Shown: in pieces, positions 11,558 to 51,735 of the stretch
Layout: every line of letters begins with the position of its first letter
Position numbering within the stretch: position 1 is the stretch's first letter
NCBI RefSeq assembly: GCF_000165505.1
Contig: NC_014633.1
Span: 496,001-560,000 of the forward strand
DNA from: Ilyobacter polytropus DSM 2926
GTDB taxonomy: Bacteria > Fusobacteriota > Fusobacteriia > Fusobacteriales > Fusobacteriaceae
Length of the DNA: 64,000 nucleotides
Direction of reading: 5' to 3'
The notes under the pieces: generated by a model
The model's database searches: none
What the model saw: the letters and a program-made list of their open reading frames with translations, nothing else
Told to the model about the DNA's origin: nothing
Made by a program: the position numbers and the translations under genes

Positions 11558-11677
11558 TATATTATTATTTTAAGATACAGCATGGTTAGAAACCAATTGG
11601 AGTTGTTTTTATCATTGACTTCTTGGGATGTTCTTACTTAACTAAACTACTCGTGGGCAGGATACTTGGAGGGTCAA

Positions 11678-14438
11678 ATGAAATCAAAAAAACAAAAGTC
11701 AAAAAAAATATTGAGAGAAATCAGCAAGCAAATAGTTATAATTTCTTTGCCGATTTTAATCATTTCCAGTCTTTTACTCGGATCAATTTATCGTTATGAA
11801 ATAAAAAGATCTACATCAAATCTGATAGGAAATCTTTCAGGAAAAACTGATGTATTTGAAGATACAGTACAATATCTTTTTGAAGAGACCTTCAGAGACA
11901 TATACATTATAAAAAATTCCAATGAGTTTCAAAATTATGTAAAAAATCAAAACTTTGAAAATAAACTAGAGGTTCAGCACCTTTTTGAAAGGTATATGTT
12001 GAATAAAGAAGATTATCTCCAGGTGAGATTTATAAATCCAAAAGGAGATGAAGTTATCAGAGTAGAAAGAGAAACAGACAGTGGTATTATTGTAAATATT
12101 GCAGACGATGAGCTTCAGTCCAAAAAAAAAGCGTTATTATTTTGGAAATACAATGAGTATAGGGGGATCGGATATATATGTTTCAAATCTTGATCTCAAT
12201 ATCGAACATAAAAAGATAGAAATGCCACATCTTCCTGTAATGAGATTTTCCTCACCTGTGGAAAACAACAAAGGAAAAACCATAGGTATTCTGATAATCA
12301 ATTTTAAGGGATTCAAATTTTTGGATACATTTAGAAATTATCTGAAAATAAATAACCCATTGATCCAAATATCCCTCACTGACAGCAACGGATATTACCT
12401 ATACAACAAGGATGAAAGCAAAAATTTTGGATTTATGTTTGAAGGTGAGGCCAAGAACTACAGACTAGAAAATGAGTCTCCTAAACTCTGGGAAATGATA
12501 AACTCTTCTTCTGAGAAAAACTTTGAGACAAAAGATAAAGTTTTATATTTTAAAAAAATAGACCCTGAATTTAAAGGACATATATATTTTGATAATGAAA
12601 ATTTCTACTGGAATGTGGTGGCCTCTCTTAAAAAAGAAGATCTGCCAAAGCTTTATCCCGATATATTTATATTTAAGAAAAATATAAAACTATATATATT
12701 ATTGGGGATACTGGCTTTGTCAGCAACTATAATCACACTCCTTCATCTAAAAAAAAGGGAGAGTAATCAGCTTTATATGGCAGAGCTTATACTAGGTTAT
12801 GTAGATGAGGCAGTGCTGATAACGGATTCTGCAGGTAATATCCTGGATTTTAATGATGAATTTCTCAATTTTACAGATTTGGATAAAGACGAGATTCTAA
12901 AGTCAGACACAAGCTTATTTGAGCTAAATGTAACTCACCCTGAAATTTATGATGATATAAAGAAAGAAATGAACAAGGGTAAAAAATGGGCAGGGGAACT
13001 CTGGCTCAAGAAAAAAGATAATTCCAAATATCCGGCTATTCTCACTATAAATAATGTGGCAAATCCAAAAAATAAAAATACAGAGCATTACGTATGTGTG
13101 ATAAAAGATCTGACCAGCGAAAAGCAAAGGGAAGCAGAGATAGAATACTTACTAACTCATCATTCAAAGACAAAACTACCAAATGAAAATCTAATGAGGC
13201 AGCTTATAGATGAAGAGATAAAAAATAACAGTGGTTTTAGCCTAATATATATAAAACTTAAAAATTATAATGATTTGGAGATAAAATACACTGATGAATT
13301 TTTGAATCTTATTTATGAAAATATAATCGGGAAAATAGAATCAATTGTCAGTGAAAAGGAAAACATAGCTCATTTATCAACAGATACCTTTATAGCTATA
13401 TGCAAGACCTCTACAAATAAACTTCTTCTCAACAAATCCATGATTGAACTTTTTAAGGGGCTGAAATCAAGCATCACTATAAAAGATATCAGTGTTCACT
13501 TAGAATTTGAAATGGGCTCGGTGATATTCCCGGAACATGGTGATTCCTCTAGAGAACTGCTGAAAAAGGCTCTGTTTTCAATAAGAGCACTTAAATTTCA
13601 TCCAGAGCGTAACTATATAATCTATCACAATAATATCGAAAAAAGTGTGAGAAGGGAGCTTGAGATAGAGGAAAACATAGTTTCAGCAATTGAAAACAAT
13701 GAATTTCAAGTTTACTTTCAGCCTCAGATTGACAGCAACACTGAAACAATAAACGGATTGGAGGCACTGATACGATGGAATAACACGACCTTGGGAAATG
13801 TTTCTCCTATGGAGTTCATACCTCTTGCTGAAGAAAAGGGTATAATAAATAAAATAGATATGTGGGTAGTAGAAGAGGTTGCCAGGCTTACTAAAAAACT
13901 TGGCCTTCACGAACAAAAGGGGATAAAAATTTCCATAAACTTATCTGCTAATGATTTTAAAAATGATTTTCTTGTTGAAGATGTAGTAGCCATACTAGAT
14001 TTCCACGGACTTGATCATAATCAATTTGAAGTTGAACTTACTGAAGGGACGCTGATAAGTGATCATGAATATGTCAGTACAAAATTGGAAGAATTTAAAA
14101 GTTATGGTATAACTGTTGCCATAGATGATTTTGGAACAGGCTTTTCTTCTATGAGTTATCTGAAGAAACTAAATTTTGATAAACTAAAGATAGACAGGTC
14201 GTTTATAAAGGATTACCCAAAAATGGACAACGGCTCTATAGCTGAGGTCATAAGCTACTTGGCTCAGAAACTGAAAGTAAATCTCATTGCCGAAGGTGTA
14301 GAGACTGTAGAGCAACTTAAGTATCTTCAGAGTATAGGGTGTGTCAATATACAAGGGTATTACTATAGTAAGCCTTTATCAGAAAAGGAACTTAAAATTT
14401 ATTTAAAAGAACATTTTGAAAAAAAGAGGTTATCCTGA
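11678..14438 (+). CDS. Cache-PAS-degenerate GGDEF-EAL protein, frame broken at an A9 tract
   Basis: One gene read in two frames. The first 148 residues (transmembrane segment near 20-42 and the start of a periplasmic cache sensor) stop making family sense after QSKKK; the sense continues one frame over as KRYYFG...DIYVSNLDLNIEHKKIEMP. Removing one A from the A9 run at 12122-12130 restores a continuous protein of about 919 residues: cache sensor, second transmembrane segment near 335-358, PAS, GGDEF-like domain with the signature degraded to LSTDTF, and an EAL domain with GLEALIRW, AIDDFGTGFSS, KIDRSFI and IAEGVET intact. The output is therefore predicted to be c-di-GMP hydrolysis. The start is the ATG at 11678 with GGAGGG just before it. 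As sequenced, only transcript slippage or an internal start would give EAL protein. Confidence 0.85.
12122..12130 (+). other. A9 homopolymer at the frameshift
   Basis: Nine consecutive A. Upstream homology is in one frame (ADDELQSKKK) and downstream homology in another (KKKRYYFG); eight A would fuse them. It may be a phase-variable tract, a slippage site or a base-calling error. Confidence 0.9.
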
Positions 14439-17603: not shown

Positions 17604-17632
17604 TTGAAAAAATACCCGTAGAATGGTACTAT
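17604..17632 (+). promoter_or_regulatory. Promoter of the aromatic (aro) operon
   Basis: TTGAAA (17604-17609), 17-base spacer, TACTAT (17627-17632). The start point would be near 17639, giving a leader of about 270 bases before aroF. Confidence 0.65.
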
Positions 17633-17680
17633 TACTTTAATTTAAAACTTCTTATTATCGAAAAGGGACAGGTGGTCTTC

Positions 17681-17734
17681 ATGGCAAGTCAAAATTTAAC
17701 GAACTGGTATTTTTATTATTATTTTAGAAATTAG
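17681..17734 (+). CDS. Aromatic leader peptide of the aro operon
   Basis: 17-residue reading frame MASQNLTNWYFYYYFRN with AGGTGG five bases before the ATG. Codons 17705-17725 are seven aromatic codons in a row: one Trp, four Tyr, two Phe. It sits between a promoter and a terminator ahead of an operon making all three aromatic amino acids. This is the layout of ribosome-mediated attenuation, where shortage of a charged tRNA stalls the ribosome and lets transcription continue. It is expected to respond to Trp, Tyr and Phe tRNAs together. Confidence 0.85.
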   Translation: MASQNLTNWYFYYYFRN

Positions 17735-17807
17735 GATTTGTAGTTGGTGTATATGCCAGAACAAATCCATTTTGTATTATAAAATATAAAATAAAAATTG
17801 GATTTGT
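17734..17807 (+). promoter_or_regulatory. Mutually exclusive hairpin arms in the aro leader
   Basis: GGATTTGT (17734-17741, starting in the leader stop codon), ACAAATCC (17761-17768) and TGGATTTGT (17799-17807). The middle arm can pair with either outer arm but not both, so ribosome position on the leader peptide can select the fold. Confidence 0.7.
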
Positions 17808-17835
17808 ATCAGGGCGGTAATAAAAGGAGAAACAT

Positions 17836-17870
17836 AAACCCCATAGGTGCAAACCTGTGGGGTTTTTTTT
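17836..17870 (+). terminator. Attenuator terminator of the aro operon
   Basis: 13-base stem (17836-17848 with 17853-17865, one wobble) closed by a GCAA tetraloop, followed by eight T. It stands about 40 bases before the aroF start, so it must be read through for operon expression. Confidence 0.9.
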
Positions 17871-17909: not shown

Positions 17910-18926
17910 ATGGTAATCAAAATGAGAAAAGATTCAGGAGAAAAGGAGTTGCTACATTTAGTGGAATTCTTACAAAAGAAAGGTTTAGAGGTAAAGGATG
18001 CTTCTAGCTCAGAATTTAAAGTAGTAGGAGTGGTAGGGGACACTTCTGTAATAGATGTAAAAGATATAGAGGCTCTAAGTGGAGTAGATAAAGTAACAAG
18101 AATCCAGGACCCTTTCAAAAAAGCCAATAGATTAATGAAAAGTGAAGATACAGTAATCGACGTATCTGGAGTAAAAATAGGTGGAGGAACATTTACAGTA
18201 ATGGCAGGACCTTGTTCTGTAGAAACTAGAGAACAGATTTTAGAGGTAGCCAACTCGGTACAAAAATCAGGAGCACAAATTTTAAGGGGTGGAGCATTTA
18301 AACCTAGAACATCACCTTACGCTTTCCAAGGTCTTGAAATGGAAGGACTAGAACTTCTGAAAGAAGCTAGAAAAGAAACTGGTCTTCCGATAGTTACAGA
18401 GATAATGTCTCCTTCTCATGTTGCAAAATTTGCAGAAGAGGTTGATGTAATACAGGTGGGGGCAAGAAATATGCAAAACTTTGACCTTCTAAAGGAACTT
18501 GGAAAAATCGATACGCCTATTCTCTTAAAAAGAGGTATGTCTGCGACTATTGAAGAATGGTTAATGTCAGCTGAATACATAATGGCTGGAGGAAATGAAA
18601 ATGTAATTCTTTGTGAAAGAGGAATAAGAACCTTTGAAAAATACACTAGAAATACCCTTGACCTAAGTGCAGTGCTAGCTGTTAAAAAACTTAGTCACCT
18701 TCCTGTAATCGTAGACCCTAGTCATGCTACAGGAAAAAGATGGATGGTAAAAGACCTTGCTCTTGCAGCTGCAGCAGTTGGAGCAGACGGTCTGATGATA
18801 GAGGTTCACAACGATCCAGAAAATGCTCTTTGTGACGGAGCCCAGTCTCTAGAGCCAAAGGCGTTTGACAAATTGATGAAATCTGTAAACAGCTTAGTTA
18901 CAGCACTGAGAAGCACAGGGGAATAA
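17910..18926 (+). CDS. aroF: 3-deoxy-7-phosphoheptulonate synthase (DAHP synthase, Iβ type)
   Basis: First step of the shikimate pathway: condenses phosphoenolpyruvate and erythrose 4-phosphate. 338 residues: an N-terminal ferredoxin-like regulatory domain of about 70 residues, as in Thermotoga-type enzymes, where it mediates Tyr/Phe inhibition, then the TIM barrel with GPCSVE, RGGAFKPRTSPYAFQG, QVGARNMQNF, CERGIRTFE and VDPSHATGKR. The ATG at 17910 follows aaggggg; the longer open frame upstream runs into the terminator and is not coding. First gene of a seven-gene operon under the aromatic leader. Confidence 0.95.
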   Translation: MVIKMRKDSGEKELLHLVEFLQKKGLEVKDASSSEFKVVGVVGDTSVIDVKDIEALSGVDKVTRIQDPFKKANRLMKSEDTVIDVSGVKIGGGTFTVMAGPCSVETREQILEVANSVQKSGAQILRGGAFKPRTSPYAFQGLEMEGLELLKEARKETGLPIVTEIMSPSHVAKFAEEVDVIQVGARNMQNFDLLKELGKIDTPILLKRGMSATIEEWLMSAEYIMAGGNENVILCERGIRTFEKYTRNTLDLSAVLAVKKLSHLPVIVDPSHATGKRWMVKDLALAAAAVGADGLMIEVHNDPENALCDGAQSLEPKAFDKLMKSVNSLVTALRSTGE

Positions 18927-18931
18927 TAGCT

Positions 18932-19765
18932 ATGAAGATAGCAGTCGTAGGTCTAGGGTTGATAGGAGCATCTGTATCAAAGGGACTTCTTGATAATGGT
19001 CATGAGGTTTATGGAGTTGACATAGATCAGGATGCCATAAACTACTGTGAAAAAAATAAACTTATTTCAAAGGGTTTTTCTGACATGGGAGAGGTACTAG
19101 AAAAATGCAAAATTGTACTTTTTTCTGTATATCCCAAAACCATGATAAGCCTTACTGAAAAATATATAGATAAATTTAAAAAAGGTACAATAGTAACAGA
19201 TGTGAGCGGGGTAAAAAAAGAGGTCGTTGCAAAAATGCAGCGACTGCTTCCCACTGATGTTGAATTTGTAGGAGTTCACCCAATGGCCGGTCGTGAAAAA
19301 ATTGGTGCAGAATATTCTGATCCCAATATTTTTAAGGGAGCAAATTATATAATAACACCTACAGAAGAAAACAGTCCGTCTGCTCTAAAGCTTTTAGAGG
19401 ATATAGGAATAGAACTGGGATTTAAAAAAATTAGTTATTTGACTCCAGAAAGGCACGATGAGATGATAGCTTTTACAAGTCAGCTGACTCATGCGATAGC
19501 AGTAGCACTTGTAAACAGTGATAAGGATCCCGATACATATAATTTTACAGGGGATTCCTACAGAGAACTTACCAGAATAGCCATGATAAATGGTGATCTT
19601 TGGAGCGAACTTTTTTTGGAAAACAGAGAAAATCTTATAGATAGAATCGAGGAATTTCAAGAAAGATTGGATATAATAAAAGAGGCATTGAAAAACAACG
19701 ATAGAAAAACTCTCATTACAGAGTTTGAGAAATCTACTAAAAAAAGACTTACTTTGGAAAAATAA
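18932..19765 (+). CDS. tyrA: Prephenate dehydrogenase
   Basis: NAD(P)-dependent oxidative decarboxylation of prephenate to 4-hydroxyphenylpyruvate, the tyrosine branch. 277 residues: Rossmann motif VGLGLIGASVSKGL at the N-terminus, GVHPMAGREKIGAEYSD near 115, and the helical dimerisation domain with TSQLTHAIAVAL. Monofunctional: no chorismate mutase fusion and no C-terminal ACT domain. It starts 5 bases after the aroF stop. Arogenate as an alternative substrate cannot be excluded. Confidence 0.93.
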   Translation: MKIAVVGLGLIGASVSKGLLDNGHEVYGVDIDQDAINYCEKNKLISKGFSDMGEVLEKCKIVLFSVYPKTMISLTEKYIDKFKKGTIVTDVSGVKKEVVAKMQRLLPTDVEFVGVHPMAGREKIGAEYSDPNIFKGANYIITPTEENSPSALKLLEDIGIELGFKKISYLTPERHDEMIAFTSQLTHAIAVALVNSDKDPDTYNFTGDSYRELTRIAMINGDLWSELFLENRENLIDRIEEFQERLDIIKEALKNNDRKTLITEFEKSTKKRLTLEK

Positions 19766-19775
19766 GGGGGACAGC

Positions 19776-21044
19776 ATGGATATCAAAATAATACCTGGGA
19801 AGTTAAATGGTGAGGTTATAATACCACCTTCAAAAAGCCTTTCTCACAGAGCCATAATAGCAGGGGCTATGGCTAAAGGAAAGAGCAATGTAACAAATCT
19901 TATTATGTCAGACGACATAGAGGCTACTATAGAGGCTATGGAAGCTTTAGGGGTTAGTATTTCTAAGGGTGAACATGAGGTAGATATAGAAGGGACAGGA
20001 ACTCTCGTAAGAAAAGAAAGTACAATTAACTGCAGAGAATCAGGTTCTACTGTAAGGTTTCTTGTGCCTATCTCATTGTTAGCAGATGGGGAAGTGAAAT
20101 TCATAGGTGAGGGTAGGCTAGCTAAAAGACCTCTTACAACTTTTTTCAATATTTTCAACGATTTCGGTGTGAAGTACGAAAGAGGAAAGGACTATCTTCC
20201 TTTGACTATAAAGGGTAAACTTACCGGCGGAAGATATAAGATGAAGGGAAATGTGAGTTCACAGTTTATAACTGGACTCATGTATACACTTCCTAAATTA
20301 AAAGAAGATTCTGTAATAGAGATAACAACACCTTTAGAGTCTATCGGATATGTGGACCTTACTCTGGATATGCTTAAAAAATCTGGAATTGAAATCGAAA
20401 ACAAAGACTATAAAGAGTTTCATATAAAAGGAAATCAGGAGTTTAAACCTGTTAATTATCGTGTAGAGGGAGATTACTCGCAAGGTGCATTCTGGATGGT
20501 TGCAGCGACTTTGGGAGCTGGATTAGACTGCATAGGCCTTGAAAAAGATTCTCTTCAAGGGGATAAAGAGATCCTTGACATAATAACAAAAATGGGTGGA
20601 ATAGTAAAAGATACAACTAAAGGTCTCACGTCGGAATTTACAAAAACAAAAGGTGCAGTCATCGACCTTTCACAATGTCCTGACCTAGGTCCTATTGTAA
20701 CTGTGATGGCATCAGTAAGTGAAGGGGAAACAAGAATAGTAAATGCTCAGAGACTTCGTATAAAGGAATCTGACAGAATTACCGCTATGGTTACTGAGCT
20801 AAATAAAGTAGGTGCCGATATAACAGAAACTGAAGACGGTATGATTATAAGAGGAGTAAAAAAATTAAAAGGCGGAGCAAAGGTATCTAGCTGGAATGAC
20901 CACAGAATAGCAATGGCGATGGCTGTAGCTTCTACTCAGTGTGAAGAGGCTATAATTATAGAGGGTGCAGAGTCGGTGAAAAAATCTTATCCTCACTTCT
21001 GGGATCATTTTAAACAGCTAGGCGGAAAGGCCGAGGTATTATAA
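19776..21044 (+). CDS. aroA: 3-phosphoshikimate 1-carboxyvinyltransferase (EPSP synthase)
   Basis: Joins shikimate 3-phosphate with phosphoenolpyruvate. 422 residues with PPSKSLSHRA near the N-terminus, ESGSTVRFL, GEGRLAKRPLT, the VSSQFITGL region, RIKESDRITAM, and DHRIAMAMA near the end. The substrate-binding GESGST-type motif reads CRESGSTVRF. The ATG at 19776 (after aagggggac) is chosen; the open frame extends upstream inside tyrA. The stop shares one base with the pheA start. Confidence 0.95.
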   Translation: MDIKIIPGKLNGEVIIPPSKSLSHRAIIAGAMAKGKSNVTNLIMSDDIEATIEAMEALGVSISKGEHEVDIEGTGTLVRKESTINCRESGSTVRFLVPISLLADGEVKFIGEGRLAKRPLTTFFNIFNDFGVKYERGKDYLPLTIKGKLTGGRYKMKGNVSSQFITGLMYTLPKLKEDSVIEITTPLESIGYVDLTLDMLKKSGIEIENKDYKEFHIKGNQEFKPVNYRVEGDYSQGAFWMVAATLGAGLDCIGLEKDSLQGDKEILDIITKMGGIVKDTTKGLTSEFTKTKGAVIDLSQCPDLGPIVTVMASVSEGETRIVNAQRLRIKESDRITAMVTELNKVGADITETEDGMIIRGVKKLKGGAKVSSWNDHRIAMAMAVASTQCEEAIIIEGAESVKKSYPHFWDHFKQLGGKAEVL

Positions 21045-22126
21045 TGATTAAAGACTTAAAAACTTTAAGAGATGAAATAGAGGTAATAGATAAAGAGATG
21101 ATAAAACTCTATTTGAGAAGAATGGAGATAGTAAAAGATGTGGCACTTTACAAGCAGGAAAACGGAATGGAAGTTCTTGACAGGTCTAGGGAGCTAGAAC
21201 TTCTTGATAAAACCTCGTCACTTGTTCCGGAAAAAGACTTAAGAGGATACTACAGAGAACTCTTAGAAAAACAGATGGAGCTTTCTAGGGATTATCAGAG
21301 AAAAATTCTTGGTCTCAAAACAAAGGTGGCATACCAAGGTGTAGAGGGAGCATTTCAACATATAGCTCTTAGGGAGATATTTGAAAAGTGCGAAGAGAAC
21401 TCTTATCTTACTTTTGAAGAGGTATTCAGAGCCGTATCGAGCAAAGAAGTGGATTTGGGTGTACTTCCTATAGAAAACTCAAGCACAGGTGAGATCAGTG
21501 AAATTTTTGACCTTCTGAGAAAGTATAACTGTTATATAACAAAGGTACACTCTTTAAAAATAGAGCAGCATCTTTTGGGAATAAAGGGTGCAAAAATTTG
21601 TGACATAAAGGAAGTTTATTCACATCCCCAAGGGTTTCTTCAGTCGTCTAAATTTCTCTATGGAAGAGGATGGAAGGAGATACCATATCACAATACAGCA
21701 GTAAGTGCAAAATATGTCAGTGATCAAAAAGATAAAACAAAGGGCACAATAGGCAGCTATGAGACTGCTAGTCTTTATAACCTCGATATATTGGCAGAAA
21801 GCATAAATACAAATGATCAAAATCAGACTAAATTTATTGTTATATCTTCAGAAAAACCAAAAACAGGAGATACTTGTGCACTGATTCTCACAGTTCCCCA
21901 TGAATCTGGTTCTCTGATGAAAATTGTGGACTCCATAGGTAAACGAGGCTACAATATGCTTAATATAAAGTCAAGACCAGTAAAAAATGTACCATGGGAA
22001 TATTTTTTCTTTATTGAGTTCCAAGGAGACATGGATAACTCAGAAGAACTTATAGAGGAACTAAAAGAAAACAGCCTATCCTTTAAGGTTGTAGGTAGAT
22101 ATCAGAAGCCGGAGGGAATAAAATGA
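21044..22126 (+). CDS. pheA: Bifunctional chorismate mutase/prephenate dehydratase
   Basis: 360 residues making phenylpyruvate from chorismate. An AroQ-type chorismate mutase helix bundle occupies about 1-88 (LKTLRDEIEVIDKEMIKLYLRRMEIVKDVALYK is its first helix, quoted here in part: RRMEIVKDVALYK), prephenate dehydratase about 92-275 (VAYQGVEGAFQH, PIENSSTGEI, SHPQGFLQ), and a C-terminal ACT domain about 280-355 (HESGSLMKIVDSIGKRGYNM), the usual site of Phe feedback inhibition. The start overlaps the aroA stop and the end overlaps the next gene by four bases. Confidence 0.94.
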   Translation: MIKDLKTLRDEIEVIDKEMIKLYLRRMEIVKDVALYKQENGMEVLDRSRELELLDKTSSLVPEKDLRGYYRELLEKQMELSRDYQRKILGLKTKVAYQGVEGAFQHIALREIFEKCEENSYLTFEEVFRAVSSKEVDLGVLPIENSSTGEISEIFDLLRKYNCYITKVHSLKIEQHLLGIKGAKICDIKEVYSHPQGFLQSSKFLYGRGWKEIPYHNTAVSAKYVSDQKDKTKGTIGSYETASLYNLDILAESINTNDQNQTKFIVISSEKPKTGDTCALILTVPHESGSLMKIVDSIGKRGYNMLNIKSRPVKNVPWEYFFFIEFQGDMDNSEELIEELKENSLSFKVVGRYQKPEGIK

Positions 22127-23352
22127 AAAGTCTCCTGAAAGAAAATTCAAAAGACAAAATGGTAGAAGATACTGTATTTAAAGTAGTGGCAGAGGCCATG
22201 AATGCGGTTAAAATCCACGGAGACAAGGTTGTAAACGCAACGTTAGGTTCTCTATCAGACGAAGATGGAAACCTTGTTACGATGAAAAGTGTCTGGGATG
22301 AATATAAAAATATAGATGCAAAGGAACTGGCTTCTTATTCTGCTTCTTTTAGAGGTGAAGCAGATTTTATAGAGGCTGTAGAAAAATGGGTGTTTCAGGG
22401 AGTAAAAAAAGATTTTTTAACTGGAATAGTAGCCACACCAGGTGGTAGTGGGGCAGTGAGTACAACCTTTAAAAATTATCTTGGAAGAGGAGAAACAGTA
22501 CTTTTACCAGAGATAGGATGGGGACCTTACTGGCTTATGGCCAAGGAATTTGGATTTGAAACAGAAGAGTATTCTCTTTTTGACGGAGACGGCTTTAATA
22601 TGCAGTCCTTTATGACAAAATGTGAGGCAATAATGGAGAAACAGGGAAGGCTATTAGCTGTAATAAATGATCCCTGCCACAATCCTACAGGTTATTCTCT
22701 AACGTCAGAAGAATGGAATGATTTAATAAGTTTCATGGATAAGTTGAGTAAAAAAGGACCGGTAGTTCTTCTTGACGATATAGCATACATGGATTTTTCA
22801 AATAATAGAGAAACGATCTCAAAGGCTATGGAAGAACTAAAGGGCAGAAATGAAAATTTTTTGGTTGTTTTTGCTTTTAGTATCTCAAAGACTCTCACAG
22901 CCTATGGTTTGAGGGTAGGTGCACAGGTAGCCGTCTCTTCGTCTCAACAAGTCATAGATGACTTTATAAGGGCAAATGAGATAAGTGCCAGAGCTGTATG
23001 GTCAAACATACCTAAAGGTGGAATGAAACTCTTTGCAAGACTCATACTAGATAAAGACAAAAGAGAAGCTTTAACAAATGAAAGAAACATTTACATAGAA
23101 CTATTAAAAGACAGGTCAGATATTTTTATGAAGGAAGCAGAAGATGTGGGTCTTCCTGTCTATCCTTATAAAGAGGGATTCTTTGTGACACTCAAAGTAG
23201 AAGATAGTAAAAGACAAAAAGAGATTCAGAAGAAGTTAAAAGAAAAGTTAATATACACAATTTTAGTTAATAAGGGTATAAGGGTGGCAGTTTGTTCCCT
23301 TCCTAAAAGAAAGATAAAGGGACTTGCAGGAAGAATAAAGGAGGCATTTTAG
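22123..23352 (+). CDS. Class I/II aminotransferase, probable aromatic aminotransferase
   Basis: 409-residue PLP-dependent enzyme. PLP lysine in FAFSISKTLTAYGLRVGAQ; cofactor-contacting motifs NDPCHNPTGYSLT and VVLLDDIAYMDF. Placed between pheA and aroC in the aromatic operon and overlapping pheA by four bases. It most likely transaminates phenylpyruvate and 4-hydroxyphenylpyruvate to Phe and Tyr, completing both branches that tyrA and pheA begin. The substrate is inferred from context; general aspartate aminotransferase activity is possible. Confidence 0.85.
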   Translation: MKSLLKENSKDKMVEDTVFKVVAEAMNAVKIHGDKVVNATLGSLSDEDGNLVTMKSVWDEYKNIDAKELASYSASFRGEADFIEAVEKWVFQGVKKDFLTGIVATPGGSGAVSTTFKNYLGRGETVLLPEIGWGPYWLMAKEFGFETEEYSLFDGDGFNMQSFMTKCEAIMEKQGRLLAVINDPCHNPTGYSLTSEEWNDLISFMDKLSKKGPVVLLDDIAYMDFSNNRETISKAMEELKGRNENFLVVFAFSISKTLTAYGLRVGAQVAVSSSQQVIDDFIRANEISARAVWSNIPKGGMKLFARLILDKDKREALTNERNIYIELLKDRSDIFMKEAEDVGLPVYPYKEGFFVTLKVEDSKRQKEIQKKLKEKLIYTILVNKGIRVAVCSLPKRKIKGLAGRIKEAF

Positions 23353-23353
23353 G

Positions 23354-24358
23354 ATGAATAGTTTCGGTAGAATGTTCAGGGTATCCATATACGGAGAGTC
23401 CCACGGAAAGGGAGTAGGTGTCCTTATCGACGGCTGCCCGGCTGGTATTCCTGTGGATAAAGAGGACTTTATGGGAGACTTGTCTAGAAGAAAAGCAGGG
23501 GGAGCAGGTAGTACCAAAAGGATAGAAAGTGACGAACCAGTAATTATTTCAGGTATATGTGACGGGCATACAACAGGAGCCCCTATAAATATCCATTTTG
23601 TAAATGGAGATACCAGATCAAAGGATTACAGCCTTTTTAAGAGGATGCCAAGACCCGGACACTCTGATTTTGTGGCAATGAAAAAGTACAATGGAAATAA
23701 TGATATAAGGGGAGGAGGGCACTTTTCAGGAAGACTAACCCTTGCCCTTGTTGCAGCTGGAGTAATTGCCAAAAAAATACTCGCAGGTTCTAAACTCAAT
23801 GCAAAGTTGGTACAGGTTGGGAAAACTGATGTAAGAAATGCATCTGAAAAGGAAATAGATAAGATTCTCACACATGTTCAAGAAAACGGAGATTCAATAG
23901 GAGGAATTGTTCAGTTTACAGGAGTTGACCTTCCTGTAGGCTTAGGAGAACCTTTTTTTGGATCGGTAGAATCTCATATCTCATCTATGATTTTCTCTGT
24001 ACCAGCTGTAAAAGGTATAGAATTTGGTGCAGGTTTTGAAGGGGTAAAGTTAAAAGGAAGTCAGCATAATGACTCAATAATAGATGCCAGCGGGAAAACA
24101 TTGACTAACAATAATGGAGGGATAAATGGAGGGATATCCAACGGAAATCCAGTTGTATTCAGAGTGGTCATAAAGCCGACTCCGAGTATATATATTCCCC
24201 AGGAGACCTTTAATTTTGAAGAAGGAAAGATGGACACCCTGCAGATAAACGGACGACATGATGCATGTATAGCAAAGAGAGCTACTGTAGTGGTAGAAAA
24301 TGCTGCGGCCATAGCATTGGCAGATTTATTTCTTATCAATAAAAGCAGTCAGATATAG
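23354..24358 (+). CDS. aroC: Chorismate synthase
   Basis: FMN-dependent conversion of EPSP to chorismate. 334 residues with the start FGRMFRVSIYGESHG, RPGHSDFVAMKKY, RGGGHFSGRLTLALVAAG and the C-terminal GRHDACIAKRATVVVENAAAI (last quoted in its core). Length slightly below the common 350-390 and all motifs intact. It starts 1 base after the aminotransferase stop. No flavin reductase fusion, so reduced FMN must come from elsewhere. Confidence 0.96.
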   Translation: MNSFGRMFRVSIYGESHGKGVGVLIDGCPAGIPVDKEDFMGDLSRRKAGGAGSTKRIESDEPVIISGICDGHTTGAPINIHFVNGDTRSKDYSLFKRMPRPGHSDFVAMKKYNGNNDIRGGGHFSGRLTLALVAAGVIAKKILAGSKLNAKLVQVGKTDVRNASEKEIDKILTHVQENGDSIGGIVQFTGVDLPVGLGEPFFGSVESHISSMIFSVPAVKGIEFGAGFEGVKLKGSQHNDSIIDASGKTLTNNNGGINGGISNGNPVVFRVVIKPTPSIYIPQETFNFEEGKMDTLQINGRHDACIAKRATVVVENAAAIALADLFLINKSSQI

Positions 24359-24368
24359 GGGCTGATTT

Positions 24369-24884
24369 ATGAATAATAATATTTTTTTAATAGGTTTTAT
24401 GGGATCGGGTAAAAGCACAGTTGGTCATATTCTCTCTGAAAAATTGGGATATTCTTTTGTAGATACAGATAACATTGTAGAAAAAGATTGGGAAATGTCT
24501 ATTTCTTCAATGTTTGAAGAGCACGGAGAAAACTATTTCAGAGAAAGAGAATATAAGGCCCTAAAAAAAATTATAGAAAATAAAAATCAGGTTGTTTCTA
24601 CCGGGGGCGGTATAGTAACATTTGAAAAAAGTAGGGAACTTTTAGAGGGACAGGAGGTATATTATATCGATGTGGATTCTGAGACAGTATATAAGAGGCT
24701 AAAATCTGACAACACAAGACCTCTTCTGAAAAACTGCTCTTTTGAAAAAATGTCTGACCTGTTGTCTTTCAGAAAAAAAATCTATGAAAATACATGTACA
24801 AGTAAAATAGACGGAAAAAAAGATCCCCAAAAGGTGGCAGAGGATATAATTTTTAACATGAGTTTAATTCATGACAGACCTTAA
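24369..24884 (+). CDS. aroK: Shikimate kinase
   Basis: Phosphorylates shikimate; 171 residues. P-loop GFMGSGKSTVG at the N-terminus, shikimate-binding DTDNIVE and the FREREYKAL segment, Walker B-like STGGGIV, and an adenine-lid arginine in DNTRPLL. Last gene of the aro operon, followed after about 50 bases by the trp promoter; no strong terminator was seen between them, so some read-through into the trp leader is possible. aroB, aroD/aroQ and aroE must lie elsewhere. Confidence 0.94.
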   Translation: MNNNIFLIGFMGSGKSTVGHILSEKLGYSFVDTDNIVEKDWEMSISSMFEEHGENYFREREYKALKKIIENKNQVVSTGGGIVTFEKSRELLEGQEVYYIDVDSETVYKRLKSDNTRPLLKNCSFEKMSDLLSFRKKIYENTCTSKIDGKKDPQKVAEDIIFNMSLIHDRP

Positions 24885-24990: not shown

Positions 24991-25071
24991 ATGATGAGAT
25001 TTACTTGGTGGTGGAAGAATAGCATATCAGACCAATCAAATAAATTATCAGGTTTTGCTGCTCTTTCATAA
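24991..25071 (+). CDS. trpL: trp leader peptide with three tandem Trp codons
   Basis: 26-residue frame beginning MMRFTWWWKNSISDQ, with aaggagg before the ATG. Codons 25006-25014 are TGG TGG TGG. Classic sensor of charged Trp-tRNA: stalling here should favour the antiterminator pairing described at 25049-25132. The second half of the frame (to the stop at 25069) carries the antiterminator 5' arm, so a ribosome that finishes the peptide covers it. Confidence 0.9.
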   Translation: MMRFTWWWKNSISDQSNKLSGFAALS

Positions 25072-36564: not shown

Positions 36565-36630
36565 AACTATCAACAACAGAGAAACAAGTGAACCAGTATT
36601 AAAATATGTAAACCCTAGAATAAAGGGTTT

Positions 36631-36718
36631 ATCCATCAAGAGAGGTGTAGGGACAGGCCCGGAGATACCTCAGCAACCTACCTATTCAGGTGTGGTGCTA
36701 ATTCCTGACAGATGGCAA
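36631..36718 (+). promoter_or_regulatory. SAM-I riboswitch (S-box)
   Basis: Core matches the S-box: AGAGAGGTGTAGGGACAGGC, then CAGCAACC and GGTGCTAATTCC, closed by a P1 stem CCATC (36633-36637) with GATGG (36711-36715). A further hairpin, AAACCC with GGGTTT, lies just upstream at 36610-36630. S-adenosylmethionine binding should favour the terminator at 36741-36777 and switch off metY and the genes after it. Confidence 0.93.
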
Positions 36719-50859: not shown

Positions 50860-51735
50860 GTGCATCTAAAAATAAAAATTCCTATCTCTAAGCTTGAGGT
50901 AAAAGGAGTCGAGGATCACAGAATAAAAATCAGGAATATAAATGTTCAAGGAGTGGAGCGAACATTTGCATATTACACACCGGCTAATTTGAGACAAAAT
51001 TGCCCGGTGATCATTGCTTGCCACGGAGCATACTGGAATCACGAAATTATGAGAAGGGCTACAGGATTTGATTTTGAAAAATTGGCAGATGAGTTTGGAT
51101 TTATCATAGCATATCCTAATTCATTTAGTTCATACTGGTTTGATGGAAGAATATCTTTTTCACATCCAGCTAAAAATCTTGACTTAGATGAAGGAGAATT
51201 TTTAAAGAGAATTATTCATTATATGGCTACTGTCTATGGGGCTAGCAGAAATGATGTCTTTTTTAATGGGTTTTCAAATGGTGGAATGCTTGGGTTTCGG
51301 TTGGCTGCAGAAAGGCAACCTATATTCAGGGGAATGGCTCTCTGCTGCTCACATCTTCCTCATGAAAACTTTTTAAATTTTCAGATAGACAGTTCATCGA
51401 CCCCTATACTCCTTATAAACAGTAGAGGAGACAGGGTTGTTCCCTTTTACGGTGGAGATCTTAATTCTGCTGGGAAAAGTAACGGCATTGTTTACTCATG
51501 TTATGATACCTTCCTTAAAATAGCAGGTATCTCAAAAATGCCTTCAGGAAGAGATTTTGGAGAATATTTACTCTATAGAGATAATAAAAATATACTTATA
51601 GAAGTGAAAAAAGGTGGGCATACCATCCCTCATCCAAAAACTAGCTGGCCTCCGATTTTAGGTAATGTTGCAAATTTTAATTCCACAGAAATAATCTGGA
51701 AATACTTTAAAAAAATTATAGACGGAGATATTTAA
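50860..51735 (+). CDS. Alpha/beta-hydrolase esterase (PHB-depolymerase/feruloyl-esterase-like)
   Basis: 291 residues. Nucleophile elbow GFSNGGM (Ser139), Asp191 in NSRGDRVVPFYGG, and His254 in KGGHTIPHP form the likely triad; PVIIACHGAYWN is the oxyanion strand. Resembles LpqC/carbohydrate-esterase-1-type polyhydroxybutyrate depolymerases, but it has no signal peptide, so it acts inside the cell, perhaps on short hydroxyalkanoate or acyl esters. Start is GTG at 50860, immediately after the TAG of the reader-like gene, which implies coupled translation. Confidence 0.82.
   Translation: MHLKIKIPISKLEVKGVEDHRIKIRNINVQGVERTFAYYTPANLRQNCPVIIACHGAYWNHEIMRRATGFDFEKLADEFGFIIAYPNSFSSYWFDGRISFSHPAKNLDLDEGEFLKRIIHYMATVYGASRNDVFFNGFSNGGMLGFRLAAERQPIFRGMALCCSHLPHENFLNFQIDSSSTPILLINSRGDRVVPFYGGDLNSAGKSNGIVYSCYDTFLKIAGISKMPSGRDFGEYLLYRDNKNILIEVKKGGHTIPHPKTSWPPILGNVANFNSTEIIWKYFKKIIDGDI

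Follow-up and report, generated by a model that had tools for sequence, protein, structure and literature searches.

A probable ribosome-mediated transcription attenuator with mixed aromatic codons ahead of the aroF operon of Ilyobacter polytropus

Background

The enterobacterial attenuators trpL, pheL, pheST and hisL use a ribosome that stalls on codons for the product of the pathway to select between an antiterminator and a terminator, and each of them answers to one amino acid. An untranslated trpL leader terminates.

AroR is a leader peptide that precedes the aroF operon of Corynebacterium glutamicum (Neshat et al. 2014, via PMC11802643; also PMC4046766). As summarized in PMC11802643, its sensing codons are Phe-Tyr-Phe only, with no Trp, stalling raises transcription, and the leader is reported to respond to limitation for Phe and not for Tyr. 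A second published case is the uORFC-13-1 motif of Acholeplasma, a candidate found upstream of aroF, with a terminator adjacent to a short frame of aromatic codons that is described as coding for at least one Phe (PMC8632094). The trpB motif (RF04312, SRC-39-1) is found in Fusobacteria and has a hairpin whose 3' shoulder can oppose the next terminator; its authors regard it as a strong riboswitch candidate and do not rule out a classic attenuator (PMC11109978). Our search of the literature for aromatic or fusobacterial leader attenuators returned only the cases cited here, and a 2010 survey of attenuators (cited by PMC4833913) may list more.

The locus described here lies in the window, meaning the whole stretch of 64,000 nucleotides of I. 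polytropus DNA that was analysed. It has a short frame with codons for the product of its operon (by predicted translation) and an intrinsic terminator ahead of the first gene, as leader-peptide attenuators do. AroR is the closest tested system, since in both cases adjacent Phe and Tyr codons stand before a DAHP-synthase operon, a likeness that is a functional resemblance only, AroR belonging to another phylum. Given the AroR precedent, an aromatic leader before aroF is known, and the variants at this locus are the mix of Trp, Tyr and Phe codons, unlike the one amino acid of each enterobacterial leader, and a chain of RNA pairings that is on by default: the untranslated leader is predicted to read through, unlike trpL. 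The locus shares the opposed terminator with the trpB motif, and the aromatic frame and adjacent terminator with uORFC-13-1, the RNA of which is different.

The aroF leader and its operon

Table 1. Positions of the leader, its RNA segments and the downstream genes in the window
Feature	Position	Strand	Remarks
Probable promoter	17604-17632	+	Putative; -35 TTGAAA 17604-17609, extended -10 TG.TACTAT 17627-17632, spacer 17; hexamers also in both congeners
Shine-Dalgarno AGGTGG of leader frame	17670-17675	+	5 nt 5' of ATG; kept in L003 and L004
Leader peptide frame MASQNLTNWYFYYYFRN	17681-17734	+	ATG 17681, stop TAG 17732-17734; predicted translation
Sensing codons TGG TAT TTT TAT TAT TAT TTT (W Y F Y Y Y F)	17705-17725	+	Read from the sequence
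Arm 1 GGATTTGT	17734-17741	+	First base is the last base of the stop codon
Arm 2 ACAAATCC	17761-17768	+	Partner of arm 1 (stalled state) or arm 3 (termination state)
Arm 3 GGATTTGTATCAGGGCGGT	17800-17818	+	Core GGATTTGT 17800-17807; partner of arm 2 or of the terminator 5' arm (antiterminator)
Intrinsic terminator	17836-17870	+	5' arm (arm 4) 17836-17848, 3' arm (arm 5) 17853-17865, 13 pairs, then T run
aroF	17910-18926	+	DAHP synthase (NF006421/TIGR01361); first gene under the putative control
Remainder of operon	18932-24884	+	tyrA-like prephenate dehydrogenase 18932, aroA 19776, chorismate mutase/prephenate dehydratase 21044, aminotransferase 22123, aroC 23354, aroK 24369
Separate Trp-only leader MMRFTWWWKNSISDQSNKLSGFAALS	24991-25071	+	Precedes trpE and has terminators; also present in the congeners G001 and G002; serves as a comparison for the aroF leader within the window

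The aromatic run of the aroF leader comprises four Tyr codons, two Phe codons and one Trp codon. It is the sole short frame in the window that follows a Shine-Dalgarno sequence and has at least six aromatic residues in eight, where dinucleotide shuffles give 0.05 such frames per window. A run of seven behind a Shine-Dalgarno sequence appeared in none of 60 shuffles of the window, which bears out an earlier note on this DNA that had pointed to seven aromatic codons with their own ribosome binding site. The promoter proposed in the same note is present as a promoter-like pair of hexamers (Table 1), and the promoter scan alone is at chance level (4 found, 3.5 expected). The next-ranked aromatic frames in the window are at 51621 (minus strand, five of eight), followed by the trpE leader.

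Rfam gave no known leader above threshold at this site. The T-box (RF00230) had no match there, and it is not the aromatic control, because the only two copies in the whole genome are weak and precede Asn genes. These two sub-threshold T-boxes (L133, contig C2, 76647-76894 and 78580-78809) stand before asparagine synthase-like and asparaginyl-tRNA synthetase-like genes. A SAM riboswitch (RF00162, 68 bits) lies at 36630-36718 of the window.

The order of the genes in the operon is the same in G001 and G002 and largely so in G006, a genome from a different genus of the family. In the window, trpEGD with its own leader comes after aroK. The genome has 3.13 Mb in three contigs, and the contig of 961,624 bases that carries the window is presumably the large plasmid of I. 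polytropus. A second aroF, 75% identical to that of the window, is encoded on the chromosome, with no evident leader upstream. Elsewhere in the window, two overlapping frames on the same strand (11666-14438; 175 and 779 amino acids) resemble a single sensor GGDEF-EAL protein that a frameshift near 12.1-12.2 kb has divided.

RNA arms and folding

An arm of eight nucleotides occurs three times, in alternating sense, ahead of the terminator, and a triple arm of this length with at least three G+C was absent from all 5000 shuffles. The arms and their folds confirm the mutually exclusive hairpins and the 13-pair terminator before aroF that the earlier note had described, with arm positions that differ by at most one base. 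That note had judged the pairing of arm 3 with the 5' arm of the terminator (3:4) to be not strong. The pairing is more extensive than this, joining about 17803-17818 to about 17838-17852, and the hairpin has an energy of -8.6 kcal/mol in the window and -10.8 in G006. At -21.4 the terminator is thermodynamically much stronger, so 3:4 needs to win by forming first, through the order of synthesis.

When the RNA ends before the 3' arm of the terminator, 1:2 plus 3:4 folds in all four species, and when arm 1 is hidden the fold is 2:3 plus the terminator. Counting against the switch, minimum-energy folds of the full-length RNA retain the terminator even when arm 1 is free. In a duplex test, 3:4 is no better than shuffles in the window (z -0.2), with a z of -2.3 in the other genus. 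It is the weakest part of the mutually exclusive antiterminator in the window, which is nevertheless present.

The downstream edge of a ribosome is taken to lie at P-site +15. With this assumed footprint, stalls at the Trp codon through the fourth Tyr codon cover none of the eight bases of arm 1 and a stall at the last Phe codon covers two, whereas a ribosome at the stop codon covers all eight.

Conservation in relatives

Both congeners keep WYFYYYF, in the leaders MATQNFTNWYFYYYFRN and MTSQNFTNWYFYYYFRN, the run being identical in the three species. In G006 the leader ends in NSFWYFYYFINTDL and the run is FWYFYYF, with two synonymous changes of Tyr codons from TAT to TAC. A third genus has the leader MVMKGFRYWYELKSNQIS after a near-perfect Shine-Dalgarno sequence (six genomes), and a fourth has leaders ending in NYFYFKFYFRSL and KYFFYFSNFKSL. 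Trp is kept in all leaders of the three genera near the window (WYFYYYF, FWYFYYF and FRYWY). The earlier note had proposed a search for W/Y/F runs upstream of aroF in relatives and would have taken their absence as evidence against an attenuator; the runs are conserved.

Among 61 genomes of the family, the 1-2-3 arm pattern occurs only in that of the window, the two congeners and G006, once in each and upstream of aroF, and the reversed pattern, as a control, had no match in the Fusobacteriaceae genomes searched. The three arms are invariant across the two genera. In both, 11 nt separate arm 1 from the last aromatic codon, even though the arm begins inside the stop codon in the window and immediately 5' of that codon in G006. 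This retention of frame, arms and spacing in three species and a second genus supports the pairing logic suggested earlier, in which an early stall would lead to 1:2 and arm 3 would oppose the terminator, and the placing of an attenuator ahead of the whole aromatic operon.

Covariation between the arms, also proposed as a check, held for some of them. Pairs changed on both sides between the genera number two columns in the inner 1:2 stem, one of which includes a mismatch in G001, and two in the terminator, while 2:3 and 3:4 have one-sided changes only. The covariation appears supportive, not strong, and it is thin because the 1-2-3 arms are known in only four genomes of two genera. In the genus with the FRYWY leader, the arm right after the stop codon (AACAGGTT) is able to pair with either of two tandem terminators, which by sequence is the same logic in a different RNA. 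The leader is similar and the arms are others, suggesting that the peptide content has been kept while the RNA arms were rewired.

Aromatic leaders before aroF extend well beyond the family. A frame with a Shine-Dalgarno sequence, an ATG and at least six aromatic residues in nine is found upstream of 28 of 80 named aroF loci, nearly all of them from Bacillota (0.08 expected from shuffles), and at least five in nine are found at 35 of the 80 (0.61 expected). The loci with such leaders include Clostridium, Oscillospiraceae, Lachnospiraceae and Acholeplasma. In the clostridial leaders the conserved sequence extends beyond the aromatic run (FWGFYFSAGY, FTYFYGKAYFGLAE), and the leaders of several relatives are without Trp. 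The Acholeplasma leaders, MFINQAYYYFYQM and MIHLNSYYYFYHM, match uORFC-13-1 in place and taxon (PMC8632094). Thirteen aroF loci, the majority with no leader detected, gave no match when scanned against Rfam. Judged by these sequences, aromatic leaders before aroF are widespread, and the uniqueness that the earlier note had implied for a mixed aromatic leader does not hold, as such leaders occur frequently in Clostridia and in other Fusobacteriaceae and have been published in two cases.

Leaders at loci resembling the trpB motif

In a permissive Rfam scan, the 2:3 hairpin and terminator of the aroF leader match RF04312 (17758-17874) with 36 bits, and the G006 copy has 49.5 bits, both below the gathering threshold of 59 bits. 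In the alignment, the P1 hairpin followed by a terminator is present in the aroF leader, and the ATCTATG core found in many other RF04312-like loci is missing. The aroF element would work like these loci and is not filed as a member of the family.

RF04312-like copies have the stop codon of a leader peptide 13-39 nt upstream. In Fusobacteriaceae, a frame with a Shine-Dalgarno sequence and an ATG ends 5-45 nt upstream of the match at 33 of 36 loci (0.27 expected), loci that are not independent because many of the sub-threshold ones are mutually orthologous. Of the three loci missed by this rule, one has a His leader that starts with GTG, another an HHHHH leader whose Shine-Dalgarno sequence is weaker, and the third an HIHHHH leader. 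At every locus, the pairing of the arm after the stop codon with the 5' side of the hairpin is stronger than in shuffles (mean z -3.6), and so is that of arm 3 with the terminator arm in 89% of loci (mean z -2.2).

The leader codons (His, Trp, Tyr, Pro or aromatic; L140 and L144-L173 among the loci) fit the next gene, with gene names taken from reading translated starts and not from a family search. HHHHH leaders precede an amino-acid-binding transporter protein in many genomes, RHHHHH and similar leaders precede hisZ-like genes, WQSHWI and WQSH precede a tryptophan-type transporter binding protein, and VNPTVPRVDLH and VNRQPIPPR precede a PutP-like symporter. In the I. polytropus genome itself, MNRKINYNGYYYYYH with a Shine-Dalgarno sequence and a terminator stands before a tyrS-like (tyrosyl-tRNA synthetase-like) gene (L137, contig C1, 1891235-1891340, minus strand), and this leader is kept in the two congeners (L138 and L139). 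The leader MMKLSTYWQDYYYYYYYCINNLYNKQVDRF at L187 (G024), which precedes a TrpX-like binding protein by about 317 nt, has a Trp codon and then seven Tyr codons in a row.

The only above-threshold trpB motif reached, in Fusobacterium vincentii (NZ_CP084075.1, L174 1427-1618, 68.5 bits), has a Trp leader, MKQILTTTMRYWQNWHR, with AGGAGG before its start, that ends about 20 nt before the motif. For about 1.4 kb downstream no gene is obvious on the same strand apart from a frame of 94 amino acids opposite a larger minus-strand gene, and this copy is possibly an orphaned attenuator. No further above-threshold motif was found in 389 broadly sampled genomes (E 1e-7) or in 391 of another class (E 1e-6), samples that may miss member-rich groups and whose controls gave no signal. 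On an Enterococcus gallinarum plasmid (L176 2659-2887), an above-threshold 'Enterococcus sRNA 2410' begins at the end of an aromatic leader, MKLLLSPQLNIAYFSYFR, and the two stand ahead of an ABC transporter operon. A Streptococcus suis plasmid (L175 2619-2879) has the leader MLQMCQNHSANHTYFYGYFR at the corresponding place. On the evidence of the leaders at the RF04312-like loci, the trpB motif is probably a leader-peptide attenuator.

Mechanism and alternatives

The aroF leader is very probably a ribosome-mediated transcription attenuator of five RNA segments. A shortage of tRNA charged with Trp, Tyr or Phe would make the leading ribosome stall within the sensing codons. Its downstream edge would end before arm 1, leaving that arm free to pair with arm 2. 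With 1:2 formed, arm 3 would be free to pair with the 5' arm of the terminator, and by this antitermination RNA polymerase would go on to transcribe the genes of the entire common and Tyr/Phe pathway, beginning with aroF. With all three amino acids plentiful, the ribosome would reach the stop codon and sit on arm 1, so that 2:3 and then the terminator would form. An absent ribosome should give read-through, like a stalled one, and a completed leader termination. We infer the start of transcription, the coupling, the stalling and the relative weight of the three amino acids in the cell; the frame, arms and terminator, with their spacing, are there and conserved. By its codon content the leader may sense Trp, Tyr and Phe, all three, as the shared aromatic sensor of the earlier note would.

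It is quite possible, though on balance we doubt it, that the response of the attenuator is confined to one or two of these amino acids, with Phe or Tyr the likeliest and the remaining aromatic codons as bystanders; this is a narrower form of the same mechanism and is compatible with it. The reported response of AroR to Phe and not Tyr (PMC11802643) argues for such narrower sensing, as do the preponderance of Tyr and Phe in the run, the separate Trp leader at trpE and the lack of Trp in the aroF leaders of several relatives. However, Trp is retained in all leaders of the three nearby genera, and a stall at the Trp codon leaves arm 1 free on geometrical grounds. A different sensing step, in which the aromatic nascent chain would stall the ribosome on a small molecule, as in TnaC, and not through uncharged tRNA, would account for the conservation of clostridial leaders past the aromatic run. 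Such an arrest peptide is very unlikely here, since Ilyobacter-type leaders are short, their residue order differs between genera and mainly their aromatic content is kept.

That the hairpin and terminator form a metabolite riboswitch or a protein-binding element, as proposed for the trpB motif, with the frame incidental, draws on the sub-threshold RF04312 match and on the authors' listing of the family as a strong riboswitch candidate (PMC11109978). It is extremely unlikely: what has been conserved is a frame whose codons match, and not an aptamer, such frames accompany nearly all of the RF04312-like loci, and the only above-threshold locus reached bears a Trp leader. TAT and TTT codons are common in the DNA of the window and the promoter scan does no better than chance, both of which would suit a chance frame in A+T-rich DNA before an ordinary terminator; the probability of this is practically negligible, as the shuffles of the window gave no such run and conservation in two genera contradicts it.

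Conclusions

The aroF and trpE leaders would document classical attenuation in Fusobacteriota, a phylum for which little of it is described in the literature searched; the entry enzyme of the pathway would have a mixed aromatic sensor and the Trp branch a sensor for Trp alone. We lean towards a broader reading, in which the aroF leader may be one version of an attenuator module that extends across Fusobacteriota and some Bacillota. The module would have exchangeable sensing codons (His, Trp, Tyr, Pro or mixed aromatic) and a stop-side arm that sets the 1:2/2:3/3:4/4:5 chain, with read-through when untranslated, and the trpB motif (more than 900 members) and the 'sRNA 2410' family would be its fragments and not riboswitches or small RNAs. 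If this is true, looking for a ligand of the trpB motif may be misguided, since the upstream leader peptide would be the sensor, and the substrates of uncharacterised transporters would be predicted by the codons of their leaders.
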